NCBI RefSeq assembly: GCF_016807805.1
Contig: NZ_CP063362.1
Span: forward strand, 1,787,001-1,851,000
Length of the DNA: 64,000 nucleotides
Source: Xanthobacter dioxanivorans
Lineage (GTDB): Bacteria; Pseudomonadota; Alphaproteobacteria; Rhizobiales; Xanthobacteraceae
Direction of reading: 5' to 3'
The translations under genes and the position numbers were made by a program. This document shows, piece after piece, positions 31,912 to 47,365 of this stretch (position 1 is the stretch's first letter; each line of letters opens with the position of its first letter). Below the pieces are notes generated by a model. That model did no database searches. It saw only the letters and a program-made list of their open reading frames with translations, and was not told where the DNA came from.

Positions 31912-32688
31912 ATGCAGACCGCCTCCCATCAGGGACACCCTCCGGCCCCCGCGTCGCCCTTGCTCGCGACCGCGAACCCGGCCCAGGCCCTGCTGCTGAC
32001 CGAGAATGCGGCGCTGACCAACGGGCCGCCCCTGCTGTTCCAGCGCCTCACCGCCAAGGAGCGGGAGGAGGTGCTGCGCGAGGGTCAGAAGCGGGTGGTC
32101 TATCGGGGCAAGATGCTGTTTTCACAAGGCACGCCCCATGACGGCATCTTCCTGATCGAGAGCGGCCGGATCCGAGTCTTCTACATCGCCCCCTCGGCTC
32201 GCGAGATCACCCTGGCTTACTGGGATGCCGGCAATTTCGTCGGCGGCCCGGAACTGTTCGGTCAGGGCCAGCACGTCTGGTCGGGGGTGGCCGCCACCAA
32301 CTCGGTGGTGGTGCATCTCACCGGCAAGACCTTGCGCCGCCTCATCGCCCAGATCCCCGCCTTCGCCATCGGCCTGATCGAGGGCGTCACCTTCAAGGGC
32401 AAGTGCTATTCCGCCCTTGCCCAGATGCTGGGCACACGCTCCGTCACCGAGCGTCTCGCCCACCTGCTGCTCCACCTCGCCGACACCTACGGCGTCAGGG
32501 ACGAAGGCGCCGTGGTCATCGGCACCGCCTTCACCCACGCGGACCTCGCCCACATGGTGGGGGCCACGCGCCAATGGGTCACCATCAGCCTCAAGCGCCT
32601 GCAGGAGCAGGGTGTTCTGAAGGCGGAGAAGGCCAAGCTGGTGGTCTATGACCTCGATGCCCTGCACGCCATGCGCGGTGATCGCTGA
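31912..32688 (+). CDS. Crp/Fnr-family transcription regulator
   Basis: The 258-residue protein has a cyclic-nucleotide-binding-like barrel (about 45-170: GKMLFSQGTPHDGIFLIESG) and a winged HTH with recognition segment LAHMVGATRQWVTISLKRLQ. There is no N-terminal cysteine set, so it should not carry an Fnr-type iron-sulfur cluster. The effector is unknown. ATG 31912 has GGGAGAAG upstream. It precedes the ABC importer genes by 180 bp and is a candidate controller of them. Confidence 0.85.
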   Translation: MQTASHQGHPPAPASPLLATANPAQALLLTENAALTNGPPLLFQRLTAKEREEVLREGQKRVVYRGKMLFSQGTPHDGIFLIESGRIRVFYIAPSAREITLAYWDAGNFVGGPELFGQGQHVWSGVAATNSVVVHLTGKTLRRLIAQIPAFAIGLIEGVTFKGKCYSALAQMLGTRSVTERLAHLLLHLADTYGVRDEGAVVIGTAFTHADLAHMVGATRQWVTISLKRLQEQGVLKAEKAKLVVYDLDALHAMRGDR

Positions 32689-32868
32689 GCGCGGCCGCCC
32701 CGGCCGCCCGCGCGCCGCCGGTATCACAGGCAGGCCTTGCTGAAAAAACGGGCGGGGCCGTAAAGGAGGCAACTAATCGACAGGCGCGCATCATCTTCCT
32801 TTGAACCGGTCGAAGCTCGCGGCGGAAGATCACGGTCGAGAGCCGTCCTGCCCCGAGAGGTGGATCCG

Positions 32869-34338
32869 ATGACCCTGTTCCCGTCCGCGCTTCTTCGCAC
32901 CCCCGTGGTTCAAACTTCGATCCTTCGCGCGCTGGCCCTGGCGCTTTCGGCCGCCAGCGCCCTCGCCGCTCTTCCCGCCGGCGCCGAGACCATCAACATC
33001 GGCATCGGCACCCAGGACACCACCACCAACACGGTGACCACGGGTGTGGTGATCAAGGAGCTGAAGCTCCTCGACAAGTATCTGCCGAAGGACGGCAAGT
33101 ATGCCGGCGCCACCTACAACATCGAATGGCAGAACTTCACCTCCGGCCCGCCGGTGACCAACGGCATGATGGCCGACAAGCTCCAGTTCGGCGGCATGGG
33201 GGATTATCCCCTGGTGGTGAACGGCTACACCTTCCAGTCCAATCCGCAGTCCAAGTCCCAGCTGATCTCGGTCGCCGCCTACAACCTGTTCGGCTCGGGC
33301 AACGGGGTGGTGGTGCACAAGGACTCGCCGTACTTCGAGCTGTCGGACCTGAAGGGCAAGGTGCTCTCCGTCCCGTTCGGCTCGGCGGCCCATGGCATGA
33401 TCCTCAAGGCCATGCAGGACAAGGGCTGGCCCAATGACTACTTCAAGCTGGTGAGCCAGTCGCCGGAGGTGGGCTCCACCAACCTCCAGGAAAAGAAGAT
33501 CGACGCCCACGCCGACTTCGTCCCCTTCGCCGAGCTGCTGCCGTTCCGCGGCTTCGCCCGCAAGATCTTCGACGGCGTGGAGACCAGGGCCCCCACCTGG
33601 CATGGCGTGGTGGTGCGCACCGACTTCGCCGAGAAGTATCCGGAGGTGGTGGTCGGCTATCTGAAGGCGGTCATCGAGGCGAACGGCTGGGTGCGCAAGG
33701 ATCCCAAGACCGCCGCCGAGCAGATCGCCAAGTGGACCGGCATCGACAAGGAAGTGGTCTACATCTTCCTCGGCCCGGGCGGCATCATGACCATGGACCC
33801 CACCATCAAGCCGCAGCTGGTGGCCGACGCCGCCGAGGATGCCGCCGTGCTGCAGAAGCTCGGGCGGATGAAGGAATTCGACGTCAAGGCCTGGGTCAAC
33901 GACAGCTATATCCGCCAAGCCTACAAGGAACTGGGCCTCGATTACGAGAAGCAGCTGGCGAGCACCGACAATTACGAGGTCTCCGGCGAGGACGCCTTCT
34001 GCAAGGTCAAGATCAGCGCGCCGCGCAAGGCGGGCGAGATCTGGATCGAGGGCGAGGGCATCAAGTCCTATTCCAGCCCCGCCTGCACCCTGGGCGCGCT
34101 CGCCGAGCTGACCGCCCAGGGCAAGACGGTGAGCATGACCTATCTGTTCGACAGCGCCCGCGGCATCAAGCTGTTCGCCAGCGAGGCCTTCTATGCGGTG
34201 GGCACGACGAAGGACGGCAAGGCGGAGATCCTGCCCTTCCTGCTCAAGGCCGACGCGGAGGCCGCTGCGGCCAAGGATGGCGGCAAGGTGATGTCCTTCG
34301 GCGACGCGCTGAAGGCCGCCACCGCGGGCCGCGGGTGA
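32869..34338 (+). CDS. ABC transporter substrate-binding protein with NosL-like C-terminal domain
   Basis: The 489-residue precursor has a signal peptide (ending AALPAGAE). The main SsuA/TauA/NMT1-type fold follows (about 40-355): TINIGIGTQDTTTN, ADKLQFGGMGDYPLVVNGY, VVGYLKAVIEANGWV. The last 125 residues resemble NosL, the copper-binding accessory protein of nitrous oxide reductase: a Cys in DAFCKVKI, then SSPACTLGALAEL, then KLFASEAFYAVG and DGGKVMSFGDALKAAT. The fusion is unusual and may bind a metal or a sulfur species. Substrate unknown. The ATG at 32869 lies eight bases after a GAGAGG site; GTG 32860 is a less likely start. Confidence 0.83.
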   Translation: MTLFPSALLRTPVVQTSILRALALALSAASALAALPAGAETINIGIGTQDTTTNTVTTGVVIKELKLLDKYLPKDGKYAGATYNIEWQNFTSGPPVTNGMMADKLQFGGMGDYPLVVNGYTFQSNPQSKSQLISVAAYNLFGSGNGVVVHKDSPYFELSDLKGKVLSVPFGSAAHGMILKAMQDKGWPNDYFKLVSQSPEVGSTNLQEKKIDAHADFVPFAELLPFRGFARKIFDGVETRAPTWHGVVVRTDFAEKYPEVVVGYLKAVIEANGWVRKDPKTAAEQIAKWTGIDKEVVYIFLGPGGIMTMDPTIKPQLVADAAEDAAVLQKLGRMKEFDVKAWVNDSYIRQAYKELGLDYEKQLASTDNYEVSGEDAFCKVKISAPRKAGEIWIEGEGIKSYSSPACTLGALAELTAQGKTVSMTYLFDSARGIKLFASEAFYAVGTTKDGKAEILPFLLKADAEAAAAKDGGKVMSFGDALKAATAGRG

Positions 34339-34343
34339 GCGCC

Positions 34344-35303
34344 ATGCAGACCGCCATGGCGAAAACGCTCGTGTCCCCCTCCGCTCCCCTGCACCTGGCG
34401 GGCGTGGAGGGAAGGGGTGCCGCCGTGGCGGCGCCGGGGCCCATCCTGTTGCGGCCGGAGCGCCCGGAGGCGCCGGCTGCCCCCGCGCCCGACCGCTCCC
34501 CCCTGGGGCGGGCGCGGCGCTGGGTGAAGCTCAATGCCGCGGCGATCCGGGCGATCCTGCTCGGCGCCCTTTCCATCGGCCTCTTCATCCTCGCCTGGCA
34601 CGTGCTCACCAGCAACCGCATGATCCTCTACGTGCGCTTCGTGAACGTGCCCTCGCCCGAGCAGGTGCTGGAAAGCGCCCGCACCGCCTTTTCCACCGGC
34701 GCCTTCTTCGACCACATCTATATTTCCTGTCGCCGCATCTTCCTCGGCTTCGCCATCGCCACCCTCGTCGCGGTGCCGTTGGGCCTGCTGATGGGGCGCT
34801 TCCAGCTGCTGAAGGACTTCGTGTTCCCGGTGTCCGAGGTGCTGCGGCCCATCCCGGCCATCGCCTGGGTGCCCATGTCCATCATGCTGTGGCCGACCAA
34901 CGAGGAGAGCATCGTCTTCATCACTTTCCTCGGCTCGTTCTTTCCCATCCTCATCAACACCCTGCACGGCATGGCCAATGTGGACGAGGTGCTGGTGCGC
35001 GCCGCCCGCTGCCTCGGGGCGAGCGAGCGGGCGACCTTCCGCGAGGTCTACTTCCCGGCGGTGCTGCCGCAGATCTTCACCGGCCTCACCGTGGGCATGG
35101 GGGTCGCCTGGGTGTCGCTGATCGCGGCGGAGATGATCTCCGGCCAGTTCGGCATCGGCTATTTCACCTGGGAGGCCTATTCCCTGGTGCAGTATCCCGA
35201 CATCGCGTTGGGCATGATCACCATCGGCGTGCTCGGGCTCGCCTCCTCCTTCCTCATCCGGCTTCTCGGGCGGGCGGTGACGCCCTGGTCCCGGGCCAAA
35301 TGA
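34344..35303 (+). CDS. ABC transporter permease (SsuC/TauC type)
   Basis: The 319-residue permease has about six helices after a long polar N-terminus of roughly 65 residues. GFAIATLVAVPLGLLMGR and the EAA loop (VDEVLVRAARCLGASERATF) mark the BPD transporter fold of nitrate/sulfonate/taurine importers. It could start at the GTG overlapping the binding-protein stop. It is followed by its ATPase. Confidence 0.9.
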   Translation: MQTAMAKTLVSPSAPLHLAGVEGRGAAVAAPGPILLRPERPEAPAAPAPDRSPLGRARRWVKLNAAAIRAILLGALSIGLFILAWHVLTSNRMILYVRFVNVPSPEQVLESARTAFSTGAFFDHIYISCRRIFLGFAIATLVAVPLGLLMGRFQLLKDFVFPVSEVLRPIPAIAWVPMSIMLWPTNEESIVFITFLGSFFPILINTLHGMANVDEVLVRAARCLGASERATFREVYFPAVLPQIFTGLTVGMGVAWVSLIAAEMISGQFGIGYFTWEAYSLVQYPDIALGMITIGVLGLASSFLIRLLGRAVTPWSRAK

Positions 35304-35326
35304 GCCAAACGAAAGCGAGGCGCGCC

Positions 35327-36202
35327 ATGGCTGTTCCTCCCGTCCCTCCCGCCCAGACCGGCCTGATCGAGGTCAGCGATTTCCATCTGGCCTACGACAC
35401 CCTCGATGGCGCCATGGTGGCGGTCAGCGACGCCGATCTCGTGGTGCGGCCCGGCGAGTTCGTCTCCATCATCGGCCCCTCCGGCTGCGGCAAGTCCACC
35501 CTGCTCAACGCGGTGGCGGGCTTCCTCAAGCCCACGGCCGGGCGGGTCACCGTGGACGGGGAGGCGGTGAAGGGCCCCTCGGCTGACCGGGGCATGGTGT
35601 TCCAGCAATATTCCCTGTTCCCGTGGAAGACGGTGCGGGAGAACGTGGAGTTCGGCCTCAAGATGCGCGGACTGGGCCGTTCCGAGCGGGCGGTGGCGGC
35701 GCGCACGCTGCTCGGCCTTGCCGGCCTTTCCGCCTTCGAGGACCATTATCCCGACCGCCTGTCCGGCGGCATGAAGCAGCGGGTGGGGATCGTCCGCGCC
35801 CTGGCGACCGGGCCCAAGGTGCTGCTGCTGGACGAGCCCTTCGGCGCGCTCGACGCGCAGACGCGCATCATCATGCAGCAGATCCTCACCAACCTCTGGC
35901 AGCGGCTCGGCATCTCGGTGCTGTTCGTGACCCACGACATCGACGAGGCGATCTTCCTCTCCGACCGCATCTACGTGATGACCGCGCGTCCCGGCACCAT
36001 CAAGGCCGAGGTGACGGTGCCGCTGGCCCGCCCGCGCGATGCGGCACTCCAGCTCTCCCCCGACTTCATCCAGCTGCGCGCCGACCTCGGCGCCCTGATC
36101 CGCGAGGAGAGCCTGAAGGCCATGGGCGGCGAGCTGAACGAGGACGCGCTGAAGGGCCTCGCGGTGAACCTCAACGGTTCGAACCTCGCGCAGGTGGTGT
36201 GA
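35327..36202 (+). CDS. ABC transporter ATP-binding protein (SsuB/TauB type)
   Basis: The 291-residue ATPase has Walker A GPSGCGKST, Q loop QQYSLFPW, signature LSGGMKQRVGIVRAL, Walker B LLLDEPFGALD and switch His in THDIDEA. The family serves nitrate/sulfonate/taurine/thiamine-precursor import. It ends the three-gene importer; the spacer to the ferredoxin gene is 452 bp. An overlapping ATG at 35300 is a possible alternative start. Confidence 0.94.
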   Translation: MAVPPVPPAQTGLIEVSDFHLAYDTLDGAMVAVSDADLVVRPGEFVSIIGPSGCGKSTLLNAVAGFLKPTAGRVTVDGEAVKGPSADRGMVFQQYSLFPWKTVRENVEFGLKMRGLGRSERAVAARTLLGLAGLSAFEDHYPDRLSGGMKQRVGIVRALATGPKVLLLDEPFGALDAQTRIIMQQILTNLWQRLGISVLFVTHDIDEAIFLSDRIYVMTARPGTIKAEVTVPLARPRDAALQLSPDFIQLRADLGALIREESLKAMGGELNEDALKGLAVNLNGSNLAQVV

Positions 36203-36654
36203 CATCCCACCCTCGCCCTCCGGCTTGACCGGAGCCATCCATCGTTTCCCGGCCGACTGAAACGGAGCGCAGCGCAGTGGAAGGAGAGCCGGGATCCCGC
36301 GCAGCGGGTCAAAGTCCAGGACCGCTGTTGAAGGCAGCGCCTTCGGCGGTCTCTTTGTGCTGGGCCCCGGCTCGCATTCCGCTGTCGCTGCATGCGTCCG
36401 GGGAATGCAGGGCGCCTGCGTTCTCCAACCGCCGTCACGGCAAAAGGACGACACATCCCTCGCAGCCGCAAACACGGTTGCTCGACTGGAGGACCCATTC
36501 CTCCTCCGGTCCCGGCGCGGCGCGCCAGCGGATTTCGTGCGGTCGTCAAGCGTCCTGGAAAATCCGCAATTAATTGACCCGTCAAGGTCTTAGTCCTGAA
36601 GGCCGAGCGCCGGTCCGGCTAAAATAAAGGAGAACAACAACGGGACCCTGCCCC
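36203..36654. other. 452-bp spacer with palindromes before the ferredoxin gene
   Basis: I see no credible gene; short ORFs here look like noise. The left part holds CTCCGG-CTTGA-CCGGAG, close to a dispersed palindrome (see 42013). The next 150 bases contain GC-rich imperfect repeats. The inverted repeat TTGAC-CC-GTCAA at 36574-36585 stands 69 bp before the ferredoxin start and is the best candidate promoter or operator. Confidence 0.55.
36574..36585 (+). promoter_or_regulatory. Inverted repeat TTGAC-CC-GTCAA before fdxA
   Basis: A perfect 5-bp inverted repeat; TTGACC also matches a -35 element. A match to a -10 element 17 bp downstream is poor, so an activator may be needed. Confidence 0.35.
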
Positions 36655-37020
36655 ATGGCCTACGTCGTCACCGACAAATGCATCCGCTGCAAATTCATGG
36701 ATTGCGTCTCGGTCTGCCCGGTGGACTGCTTCTATGAGGGCGAGAACATGCTCGTCATCAATCCGGACGAATGCATCGATTGCGGCGTGTGCGAGCCCGA
36801 ATGCCCGGCCGCCGCCATTTCCGCCGACAGCGATCCTGAGGCGGCGCGCTGGCTGGCGCTCAACGCCGAATATGCCGCCCTGTGGCCGAACATCGCCGAG
36901 AAGAAGGAGCCGCCGGCCGACGCCTCGGACTGGATGGACGTGGACGGCAAGTTCGAGAGCGCCTTCTCGGCGGCACCGGGCCAGTCCTCCGCCGGCCCGT
37001 CCCCGTCGTCGCTGGCGTGA
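36655..37020 (+). CDS. fdxA: Seven-iron ferredoxin
   Basis: The 121-residue protein matches Azotobacter FdI-type ferredoxins. Cys9, Cys17 and Cys50 would bind the [3Fe-4S] cluster; Cys21, Cys40, Cys43 and Cys46 the [4Fe-4S] cluster, as in [14 protein letters not shown] and [11 protein letters not shown]. It carries electrons at low potential. The C-terminal tail is Pro/Ser-rich. It is followed after 10 bp by ferredoxin-NADP reductase, its natural partner. Confidence 0.94.
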
Positions 37021-37030
37021 GGGGAGAGCC

Positions 37031-37804
37031 ATGAGCAATCTCAACACCGAGACCGTCCTCGATGTCCGCCACTGGACCGACCGGCTCTTCTCCTTCACCG
37101 CCACCCGCGACACCGCCTTCCGCTTCAAGAGCGGCCAGTTCACCATGATCGGCCTGCCGGTGGCCGACAGGCCGCTGCTGCGCGCCTATTCACTCGCCTG
37201 CGCGCCCCATGAGGACACGCTGGAATTCTTCTCCATCAAGGTGCCGGACGGCCCGCTCACCTCGCGCCTGCAGGCGCTGAAGCCGGGTGATCCCATCCTC
37301 GTCGGCCGCCGCCCCACCGGCACGCTGCTGCTGGACAATTTGAAGCCCGGCAAAAGGCTCTATCTTCTCGCCACCGGCACCGGGCTGGCGCCGTTCGTGT
37401 CCATCGCCAAGGACCCGGAGGCCTATGAGCGCTTCGAGCACATCGTGCTGGTGCACGGCTGCCGCGAGGTGGCGGAGCTGGCCTATGGGGAGCAGGTGGT
37501 GGCGGACCTCAAGGCCAACGATTTCCTCGGCGAATACGCCGCCGCCCAGCTGCTGCATTATCCGACCGTGACGCGCGAGCCGTTCCGCAATCGCGGCCGC
37601 GTCACCGACCTGATGGAGAGCGGGCGGCTGTTCGCCGATCTCGGCCTGCCCGACCTCGACCCGGCCCATGACCGGGTCATGCTGTGCGGCTCGCCGCAGA
37701 TGATCGCCGACACGCGCGAGCTCCTCGAAGGACGTGGCTTCGCCGAGGGCGCCGGCCATCGGCCCGAGACCTTCGTGGTGGAGAAGGCCTTTGCCGAGCG
37801 GTGA
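37031..37804 (+). CDS. fpr: Ferredoxin-NADP+ reductase
   Basis: The 257-residue flavoprotein moves electrons between NADPH and ferredoxin. FAD binding is seen in RAYSLACAP, the NADP-binding start in LATGTGLAPF, and MLCGSPQMIADT follows. The C-terminal VEKAFAER is typical of bacterial subclass Fpr. It is 10 bp after fdxA and clearly in one unit with it. Which redox enzyme they serve is not shown by the sequence. Confidence 0.93.
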   Translation: MSNLNTETVLDVRHWTDRLFSFTATRDTAFRFKSGQFTMIGLPVADRPLLRAYSLACAPHEDTLEFFSIKVPDGPLTSRLQALKPGDPILVGRRPTGTLLLDNLKPGKRLYLLATGTGLAPFVSIAKDPEAYERFEHIVLVHGCREVAELAYGEQVVADLKANDFLGEYAAAQLLHYPTVTREPFRNRGRVTDLMESGRLFADLGLPDLDPAHDRVMLCGSPQMIADTRELLEGRGFAEGAGHRPETFVVEKAFAER

Positions 37805-37873
37805 GGCTTCCGGGCCGGCGCCGGCCCTGCCCGCGAGGGCCGGGCTGTCGGCGCATCCGGTGCCGGCATGCCA

Positions 37874-37928
37874 TATAATCAAATAAATCGATCAATTGTA
37901 GAAATACAACTCGTTTGATCGATTGATT
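37874..37928 (+). promoter_or_regulatory. Perfect -10 box and nested palindromes before the YeiH-type gene
   Basis: TATAAT at 37874-37879 is a perfect -10 element without a good -35 partner, so the promoter probably depends on an activator. Just downstream, AATAAATCGATCAA (37882-37895) and TTGATCGATTGATT (37915-37928) form a 14-bp inverted repeat with one mismatch. Nested inside is TTGTA-GAAA-TACAA (37896-37909), a LysR-like T-N-A arrangement. The LysR gene 1.2 kb downstream is the obvious candidate regulator. Confidence 0.6.
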
Positions 37929-37967
37929 GTGCCGCTGCATGCTCCGTGTCACTTCTGGAGCCCCGCC

Positions 37968-39032
37968 ATGACCGACAAGACCGTCGCCGACCCTGCCACG
38001 CTCGCACCGTCCCCGCTCGCCCGCGGAGGTGGTCCGCTTGCCACGGCCTTCGGCGGCATCCTGCCGGGCCTCGCTTACACCGTGCTCATCGCCGCCTCCG
38101 CCTACGGGTTGCGGCAGATCCCCGGCATGGGGCTGGTGAGCCCGCTTATCCTCGCCATCGCCATCGGCATGGCCCTGCACAACATCTTCGGCACGGCGGC
38201 CATCGCCAAGCCGGGGGTGAAGTTCGCGCTGCGCCGCATCCTGCGCTTCGCCATCGTGCTGCTGGGCCTCCAGCTCACCTTCGAGCAGGTGCGCTCGGTG
38301 GGGCTCACCGGCTTCCTCATCGTCGCCGGAACCCTGTTCGCTACCTTCTTCGCCACCCGCTGGCTGGGCCGGCTGATGGGGGTGGACAAGCAATTGTCCG
38401 AGCTGATCGCGGCCGGCACCGCCATCTGTGGCGCCTCGGCGGTGATCGCCACCAACACGGTCACCCGTGGCTCGGACGAGGATGTGGCCTATGCGGTGGC
38501 CTGCGTCACCGTCTTCGGCTCGCTGTCCATGCTGCTGATGCCGGTGCTCCTGCCCTATACGGGCCTCGACGCGCACGGCTTCGGCCTGTGGACCGGCGCC
38601 TCCATCCACGAGGTGGCGCAGGTGGTGGCCGCCGCCTTCCAGGGCGGCCAGCAGGCCGGCGAGTTCGGCACGGTGGCGAAGCTGTCGCGGGTGATGCTGC
38701 TCGCGCCCCTGGTCATCGGCCTCGGCGCCGCCGCCGTCATCCGCGCCCGCGGCGACAAGGCGGCCGGCCATGCCAGCCCGCCAATGCCGTGGTTCGTGTT
38801 CGGCTTCATCGCCATGGTGATGGTGGCTTCGAGCGGATGGGTGCCGGCGGAGGTGAAGATGCCGGTCGCCACCACCACCACCTTCCTGCTCGCGGTGGCG
38901 CTGGGCGCCATGGGGCTGGAGACCGACATCGCCAAGCTGCGCCTCAAGGGCATCAAGCCCCTGCTTCTCGGTGCCGCCGCCTGGCTTTTCATCTCGGCGC
39001 TGAGCCTTATCCTGATCAAGACGCTGATGTGA
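37968..39032 (+). CDS. YeiH-type (UPF0324) putative sulfate/sulfite exporter
   Basis: The 354-residue protein has about ten hydrophobic helices. Characteristic segments are [36 protein letters not shown] and [18 protein letters not shown], placing it in PF03601. Members of the family are called putative sulfate exporters. E. coli yeiH is linked to the LysR regulator YeiE, which responds to sulfite; a LysR gene follows here too. The ATG at 37968 gives the normal length. Confidence 0.85.
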
Positions 39033-39038
39033 GCGAAA

Positions 39039-39096
39039 GCCCGCGCGGCGCCTGAGCGGGATCCCGCAGAATCAAGGCCCGCGCGACGCCTGAGCG
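39039..39096. repeat. 20-bp direct repeat between the YeiH-type and LysR genes
   Basis: GCCCGCGCGGCGCCTGAGCG (39039-39058) recurs at 39077-39096 with one change (GACGCC for GGCGCC). The two copies are 38 bp apart. Confidence 0.8.
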
Positions 39097-39114
39097 CGGG
39101 CAGGCGGAGCCACG

Positions 39115-40056
39115 ATGACGCTGGAGCAATTGCGGGTCTTCGTCGCCGTCGCCCGCGCCCTGCACATGACGCGCGCCGCCGCCCAGCTTCACATGACCCA
39201 GTCGGCGGTCAGCGCCTCGGTCGCGGCGCTGGAGGCTTCCTGCGGCGTCGCCCTGTTCCACCGGGTGGGGCGGCGGATCGAGCTGACCGAAGCGGGGCGC
39301 GCCTTCGTGCCGGAAGCGGACGCCGTGCTCGCCCGCGCCGCCGCCGCCGAGACCGTGCTGGCCGATCTCTCCGGCCTGAGGCGCGGGCGCCTCGCGCTCC
39401 AGGCCAGCCAGACCATCGCCAACTACTGGCTCGGTCCCCTGCTCAATCGCTTCCACCAGCTTTATCCGGACATCGCGCTGTCGGTGGTCATCGGCAACAC
39501 CACGCAGGTGGCGGCGGCGGTGCGGGAGGGGACCGCCGATCTCGGCTTCGTGGAAGGCGAGGTGGAGGAGCCGCTCCTCGCCCGCACCGCCGTGCCGGGG
39601 GACCGGCTGGTGCTGGTGACGGCGGCCGGCCACCCGTTCGCGGCGCGGCGCGCGCTGACGCCGGCGGACCTGTTCGAGCTGCCGTTCGTGCTGCGCGAGC
39701 CCGGCTCGGGCACACGGCAGGTGTTCGAGGATGCGCTGCGCGCGTCCGGGCTCGATCCGGCGGGGCTCAAGGTGGTGCTGGAGCTGCCGTCCAACGAGGC
39801 GGTCATCAGCGCGGTGGCGGCTGGGGCCGGGGCAACGGTGATCTCGGACCTGGTGGCGGCGGCGGGGCTCGCCACCGGCACCCTGCGCCAGCTGCCGCTG
39901 GGCTTTCCGGCGCGCCGCTTCTACGCGCTGCGCCACGCCGATCGGTACCACTCGCGCGCCGCGCAGGCGCTGACGGCGCTGATGCAGGCGCCCGAAGCGG
40001 CGCGGGCGGCCCCGGCGGCGCCTACGAGCCGGCCGCGGCCTCGAGCTCGGCGCTGA
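39115..40056 (+). CDS. LysR-family regulator
   Basis: The 313-residue protein has the LysR N-terminal HTH (MTLEQLRVFVAVARALHMTR, AAAQLHMTQSAVSASVAALE) and a periplasmic-binding-like effector domain (LALQASQTIANYWLGPLLNR, VIGNTTQVAAAV). It is closest in style to CysL/YeiE regulators, as expected next to the YeiH-type gene. The tail is Pro/Arg-rich. Its 3' end overlaps the converging ABC-F gene by 35 bases. Confidence 0.88.
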   Translation: MTLEQLRVFVAVARALHMTRAAAQLHMTQSAVSASVAALEASCGVALFHRVGRRIELTEAGRAFVPEADAVLARAAAAETVLADLSGLRRGRLALQASQTIANYWLGPLLNRFHQLYPDIALSVVIGNTTQVAAAVREGTADLGFVEGEVEEPLLARTAVPGDRLVLVTAAGHPFAARRALTPADLFELPFVLREPGSGTRQVFEDALRASGLDPAGLKVVLELPSNEAVISAVAAGAGATVISDLVAAAGLATGTLRQLPLGFPARRFYALRHADRYHSRAAQALTALMQAPEAARAAPAAPTSRPRPRARR

Positions 40057-47119: not shown

Positions 47120-47365
47120 CCGCGCGGCGCCCCCTCTGTCTGAAGGACCTGAGAGATTTCACCGTGCCTCGTGGAAGGGCGCGGCTTACTCCTTCGGTGA
47201 GCGACGAGGATGCGCGTCTCCGCGCAGTGCCGGCGCTGCTTTCCAGAGGCTCGTCCCCCTGCGGCCCTTGGTGCCTGAGCGGTTCCGGGGCGGTTGCGCC
47301 TTCGGCGCCGGCCTGGAACCTCGCGAGAGGAAAAAGGCCGGTCTCTCCCGCAGGGATCGTCCGAT
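47120..47365 (-). promoter_or_regulatory. Tandem glycine riboswitch upstream of gcvT
   Basis: On the minus strand two aptamers follow in order. The first (about 47365-47235) contains GGGAGAGACC, GCCGAAGGCGCAA and CTCAGGC with the terminal GGGGGACGAGCCTCTGGA. The second (about 47225-47120) contains ACCGAAGGAGTAAG and CTCTCAGGTCC with CAGACAGAGGGG. These are the known conserved pieces of the gcvT motif. Glycine binding should switch on the gcv operon, which starts about 100 bp further at 47014. Confidence 0.88.

Follow-up and report, generated by a model that had tools for sequence, protein, structure and literature searches.

What does an importer do whose binding protein carries a NosL-like domain, and whose neighbours encode a ferredoxin, a ferredoxin reductase, a candidate sulfite exporter and two regulators? 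The question was raised by a window of 64,000 nucleotides from the 6.65 Mb genome of Xanthobacter dioxanivorans (G000:C1:1787001-1851000), in which eight genes lie on the same strand at 31912-40056 (open reading frame positions in the window; Table 1). The original prediction had taken these co-oriented genes as one whole system that may import a sulfur compound, release sulfite or sulfate reductively and export the excess. The genes and their names were borne out by family searches, with a marginal NosL match, a TIGR00698 score under cut-off and a LysR protein that is not a YeiE equivalog. The whole system they are not, since the enzyme genes, for a flavoprotein related to AprA, the alpha subunit of adenosine 5'-phosphosulfate (APS) reductase, and to 3'-phosphoadenosine 5'-phosphosulfate (PAPS) reductase, and for its ferredoxin, stand at another locus of the same genome. 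The evidence that importer and enzyme form one regulated system of two loci is strong, and we put at about 0.55 the probability that the genes of the window are one half, for uptake and electron supply, of a two-locus, sulfite-releasing regulon for scavenging organosulfur.

Importer and enzyme genes at two loci

Relatives of the periplasmic binding protein (SBP) were collected by a scan of named genomes, and the best 80 of at least 543 were compared; Bradyrhizobium dominates, so the loci are not independent, and two pairs from the same genomes (L046 and L058, L057 and L059) stand within the locus counts. Gene calls in these loci were tblastn matches (E 1e-8, at least 40% of the reference), not annotations. 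The SBP was accompanied by the permease and the ATPase of the ATP-binding cassette (ABC) transporter in 80/80 best loci, by a DUF971 gene in 76, and by genes for an AprA-like flavoprotein, an eight-cysteine ferredoxin and a HEAT protein in 75 each, the five loci without these three being two Xanthobacter loci and three loci shorter than 14 kb. Of the neighbours originally predicted, fdxA or fpr held up well (75/80, and 61 of the 62 loci of at least 20 kb). The yeiH-lysR pair did not hold as a core neighbour: any YeiH-like gene was found in 42 loci, close YeiH was confined to Xanthobacter and one Aquabacter locus, and the window LysR was matched in five loci, closely in two. With close YeiH and LysR so rare, the pair looks like a local addition.

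Among plasmid relatives, eight of the nine annotated regions place next to the SBP gene a flavoprotein annotated as 'fumarate reductase/succinate dehydrogenase', together with a ferredoxin (about 77 aa) and a HEAT-repeat protein, and DUF971 is often there too; the exception is a Paraburkholderia cluster, where SulP, an arylsulfatase and a formylglycine-generating-enzyme-like gene take their place. The same enzyme genes were found by tblastn in a tenth, unannotated region. In Methylobacterium radiotolerans the importer and enzyme halves are adjacent; its plasmid carries, upstream of both, the anti-phage gene qatD (L022 1-516). On the Acidithiobacillus caldus plasmid pTcM1 (L176 6361-14035), a GntR gene is followed by AprA-like, ferredoxin, HEAT and fdxA genes and then by a long FAD-dependent oxidoreductase gene.

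In the genome of the window, an AprA-like flavoprotein 84% identical to the M. radiotolerans copy is encoded at 2478315-2480030, about 0.66 Mb from the importer, at a locus that also holds the ferredoxin and HEAT genes; a GBBH-like_N/DUF971 frame was read in the sequence upstream, the family test being made on the copy of a congener. The halves are unlinked in seven Xanthobacter genomes (G000, which is the window's own, G001, G002, G003, G005, G010 and G012) and linked in diverged versions in G004 and G013. In these last two (loci L051 and L050, respectively) the SBP is about 45% identical, the enzyme genes are linked, fdxA-fpr lies on the other strand and no box of the kind described below is present.

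Co-occurrence was scored with presence thresholds of E 1e-90 or better for the SBP and E 1e-120 or better for the AprA-like protein. Among 198 genomes of the family the SBP was present in 38 and the AprA-like protein in 37; 36 genomes had both, two the SBP only, one the AprA-like protein only and 159 neither (Fisher p 6e-36, kinship ignored). In a class sample of 240 genomes, the same three, the window's own included, had the SBP and the AprA-like protein.

A box shared by the two loci

Upstream regions were read for operator-like sequences, and GCAACTAATCGAC was found before the SBP gene, GCAATTAATTGAC before fdxA and GCAACTAGTTGC, a palindrome, ahead of the enzyme operon of the same genome. 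Since the window has two promoters with a box and the unlinked locus has a third, a one-operon reading was rejected. The strict pattern GCAACTA[AG]T[CT], for which palindromic G-form boxes were counted on both strands, gave 168 sites in the window and 103 loci, every one upstream of system genes (SBP 84, DUF971 73, fpr 8, aprA-like 3). With the window excluded, 167/167 sites in 87 of the 103 loci were so placed, as against 2/53 for the reversed control, which is the fair comparison because the loci were fetched for holding system genes. Eight of 14 genomes of the genus carried the strict box at the SBP promoter as well as at the aprA-like one, and those eight held two strays in all; genome-wide, the 14 genomes held five strays (one each in G000, G005 and G011, two in G013). 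The pattern GCAAYTARTTG occurred three times in the window's genome, at the promoters of fdxA and of the enzyme operon and as a stray on the guaA side; the control gave two. The stray box at G000:C1:3335175, near the guaA end, was taken as chance, since congeners had no matchable site. The fdxA box lay in the same place in 7/7 Xanthobacter loci with the gene order of the window, and two Aquabacter loci had a one-mismatch form there.

A Crp gene at 50% identity or more was present in 76/80 best loci. Among SBP loci with a Crp of at least 56% identity, 84 of 85 carried the box and the remaining one had a near variant; among those without such a Crp, 1/15 carried it.

Families and folds of the proteins

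The flavoprotein had as its best solved relative the PAPS reductase alpha subunit of Methanothermococcus thermolithotrophicus (MtPAPSR, 8a8o; E 6e-59), and homology to the AprAB type covered nearly the full length (residues 8-532 of 572); A. fulgidus AprA came second (E 1e-37). The adjoining 77-aa ferredoxin, a weak aprB match (36 bits), resembles a small beta subunit. Excerpts of PMC10322725 report that the M. thermolithotrophicus enzyme reduces PAPS, propose a mechanism of APS-reductase type and suggest switched substrate residues as the cause of its specificity. The enzyme was found in alpha-, beta- and gammaproteobacteria, Acidithiobacillus, cyanobacteria and actinobacteria. On a Tsukamurella plasmid (L178 9001-11682) AprA-like and HEAT parts are fused in one protein of 893 aa, which makes the HEAT protein a likely partner of the flavoprotein; the binding protein of that plasmid was not matched by Pfam NosL at E 0.01.

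The claim that a NosL-like domain is fused to an SBP of SsuA/TauA type was sustained by Pfam NosL, by the predicted structure and by relatives. By sequence alone the domain was marginal in the window SBP (24.1 bits, Pfam cut-off 24); its fold was upheld by the predicted structure and structural comparison, and at E 0.01 or better Pfam NosL was also matched by relatives, namely by 16 of the 19 close ones and by 4 of the 10 in a wider set. The best fold matches of the SBP were SsuA and TauA; the top 50 Foldseek matches listed were folds of binding-protein type without any NosL chain, such chains appearing within the top 1000. The SBP, permease and ATPase share fold and family with SsuABC and TauABC, and differ in scores under the curated cut-offs (for the SBP, 118 of 163.5 bits with NCBIfam SsuA_fam and 62 of 304 with the taurine model) and in the extra domain. 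A Paraburkholderia plasmid (L024 9842-17046) carries an SBP-NosL paralogue and ABC genes beside an arylsulfatase, a formylglycine-generating-enzyme-like gene and a SulP transporter, with no AprA-like set.

Table 1. Genes and boxes of the importer locus (window positions).
Feature	Position	Strand	Basis or remark
Crp/Fnr-family regulator	31912..32688	+	PF00027 and PF13545; candidate reader of GCAACTA box
Operator-like box GCAACTAATCGAC	32769..32781	+	about 100 bp upstream of SBP gene
SBP, SsuA/TauA-like domain with NosL-like C-terminal domain	32869..34338	+	
ABC permease, NtrB/SaoP/TauC/SsuC type	34344..35303	+	family searches
ABC ATPase, SaoA/TauB/NtrCD type	35306..36202	+	family searches
Second box GCAATTAATTGAC, upstream of fdxA	36566..36578	+	
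Ferredoxin FdxA	36655..37020	+	NF045490, over cut-off
Ferredoxin-NADP reductase family protein (Fpr-like)	37031..37804	+	family searches
YeiH-family membrane protein, candidate sulfite exporter	37968..39032	+	PF03601
LysR-family regulator adjoining yeiH, YeiE-like	39115..40056	+	under YeiE cut-off

FdxA passed its equivalog score (162 vs 135 bits), YeiH scored 261 bits with PF03601 against a cut-off of 24.5 and fell under the NCBIfam cut-off of TIGR00698, and the LysR protein reached 202.8 of the 480 bits of the YeiE equivalog. In Salmonella, according to excerpts of PMC12880088, YeiE activates yeiH, which sulfite resistance needs; a YeiH-family gene adjoins a LysR gene in both cases, the two being divergent in Salmonella and co-oriented here. 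Away from the gene set, a glycine riboswitch (RF00504, 61.5 bits) lies at 47252-47360 on the minus strand, and no other Rfam match was found in the window at gathering scores.

A possible route for organic sulfur and its rivals

The genes probably work together as follows. The SBP-NosL protein, permease and ATPase would import an organosulfur anion in oxidised form, of which a sulfonate or a sulfate ester is the likeliest; the flavoprotein, with the eight-cysteine ferredoxin as subunit, the HEAT partner and the DUF971 protein (which we take to be an Fe-S assembly helper), would cleave it reductively to sulfite, with electrons passing from NADPH through the Fpr-like reductase to FdxA. Sulfite would be assimilated and the excess expelled by YeiH, and a dedicated Crp-family regulator would read a GCAAYTARTYG-type box before the SBP gene, fdxA and the enzyme operon. 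Sulfur import with sulfite release, as originally predicted, is in line with the SsuA/TauA-like SBP, the candidate reductive enzyme and exporters nearby in several lineages: YeiH and TauE both lie beside the system in Pseudanabaena, TauE is annotated near it in Leptolyngbya, Rhizobium and Aquabacterium (the Aquabacterium one family-tested), and Bradyrhizobium has a distinct YeiH-like protein (two proteins tested). These exporter genes lend indirect support to sulfite as the product. Other sulfur genes were seen as well, with ssuD and tauA in one cluster and an arylsulfatase with a paralogous importer in another. We hold organosulfur import with sulfite release with moderate confidence, and any exact substrate with weak confidence. 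That the enzyme would be a reductive desulfonase, driving oxygen-independent cleavage of S-C or S-O bonds with ferredoxin, is a tentative proposal to which we give rather less than even odds.

Several observations weigh against this reading. Close YeiH (at least 60% identity) was found in only 3/80 best loci, TauE references matched none of the 80 by tblastn, and fpr was present in 67 but fdxA itself in just 22. Three genomes were discordant, all in assemblies of 500-830 contigs: two with the SBP only (G381 and G395, partial SBP, 830 and 790 contigs) and one, G007, with the enzyme and an SBP remnant; at a contig end of G007 (L184 4529-4851) the box and SBP start run straight into lysR sequence, either by internal deletion or by assembly error. 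The reversed box outnumbered the box in most of the 14 genus genomes (13 vs 4 in G000), so the evidence of the box is its position, not its number. No box was found just upstream of fdxA in 11 checked loci outside Xanthobacter and Aquabacter, the diverged and GntR-type clusters L023-L031, L050, L051, L134 and L135 lack the box, and the correlation that points to the clustered Crp as candidate reader of the box is confounded by phylogeny. The substrate site of the enzyme also differs from that of AprA. R265 of A. fulgidus AprA contacts sulfate, and E141 and N74 also have substrate-site roles; R265 is aligned with a Leu that is invariant in 16 aligned AprA-like sequences, and the Asn aligned with N74 is retained in the Xanthobacter enzyme. 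Gln145, an APS contact in A. fulgidus AprA according to excerpts of PMC10322725, is aligned with Val, and E141 with Lys, in a gapped stretch, so the APS contacts were not recovered. The structure model of the AprA-like protein, with a pLDDT of 56, was of too low quality for a look at the pocket and was not used. The flavoprotein is akin to APS reductase, and the loss of R265 with the other changes suggests that its substrate is probably not APS and that its chemistry could differ; its 77-aa beta-like subunit and organosulfur-type importer context set it further apart from AprAB and MtPAPSR.

The nearest described system seems to be asfRABC, the aromatic-sulfonate system of Pseudomonas putida S-313, which according to excerpts of PMC4267179 comprises a flavoprotein 'reductase', a ferredoxin, an SBP, an ABC transporter and a LysR regulator, is active under sulfate limitation and complements ssu; excerpts of PMC9694294 and PMC2864759 bear on the same system. 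SBP, ABC, flavoprotein and ferredoxin genes stand together in an asf-like way in 75/80 best loci; the window's genome has them at two separate loci. As has been proposed for AsfA and AsfB, flavoprotein and ferredoxin might be the electron chain of an oxygenase, with C-S bonds cleaved oxygenolytically by an SsuD-type or other enzyme, and oxygenase-type genes do occur in 4 of 17 annotated clusters (NtaA/DmoA, SsuD, an LLM flavin oxidoreductase and a Rieske protein). These four differ in kind, however, an SsuD reference, the only oxygenase family searched for there, matched none of the 80 best loci, the flavoprotein is matched to APS/PAPS reductases, a catalytic and not a carrier family, over nearly its full length, and the separate FdxA/Fpr pair already provides a carrier chain; we consider this alternative unlikely. 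The enzyme itself seems to belong to a different subfamily from AsfA. A probable AsfA on the megaplasmid of C. metallidurans CH34, identified by its adjoining ferredoxin and ABC genes in a record without locus tags, was about 26% identical to the AprA-like flavoprotein (E 1e-7), which makes it unlikely that the latter is AsfA itself, and a fumarate-reductase-like flavoprotein in a different context there matched better (30%, E 4e-19). The ferredoxin beside the CH34 candidate has 111 aa versus 77, no HEAT or DUF971 gene was recognised in the open reading frame list around it, where no family search was made, and the regulator is LysR in asf versus Crp in most related clusters here. The present gene set was not found described in the open-access literature searched, the original asf papers lying outside that search.

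Three further alternatives were weighed. An NMT1-type importer and flavoenzyme could handle another anion or an aromatic compound, as the SBP fold is also that of nitrate, bicarbonate and pyrimidine binding proteins and the SsuA_fam score is under cut-off; against this stand the SsuA/TauA best folds, the clusters with sulfite exporters and sulfur genes nearby, and the nearest solved relatives of the enzyme, and we judge it improbable. Still less probable is an alternative assimilatory APS/PAPS reductase with the importer as bystander. Its closest solved relative is indeed an assimilatory PAPS reductase (excerpts of PMC10322725), but the genome already has CysD and CysH, the latter over the PRK02090 cut-off, so the AprA-like enzyme is not needed for sulfate and was rejected as the only APS reductase of the cell; the Arg aligned with R265 is lost, and importer and enzyme are tied by co-occurrence and box. 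The NosL fold, common to this domain and the copper chaperone, together with C378 and C406, invariant in 19 close members, might suggest a copper handler, which we regard as very improbable: both Cys are missing in 7/10 of the wider alignment, yet those seven adjoin the same enzyme genes, so a copper site general to the family seems unlikely, and no product in 17 annotated neighbourhoods is named for copper.

Organic forms account for more than 95% of the sulfur in soil, and bacteria free it from sulfonates and sulfate esters (excerpts of PMC4267179); many plasmid-borne copies of the gene set are found in legume- and plant-associated bacteria. If the organosulfur-scavenging reading is true, a sulfonate-type importer tied to an APS-reductase-like enzyme would be a new route for the release of organic sulfur, and it would give a function to proteins now annotated as 'fumarate reductase/succinate dehydrogenase flavoprotein subunit'.

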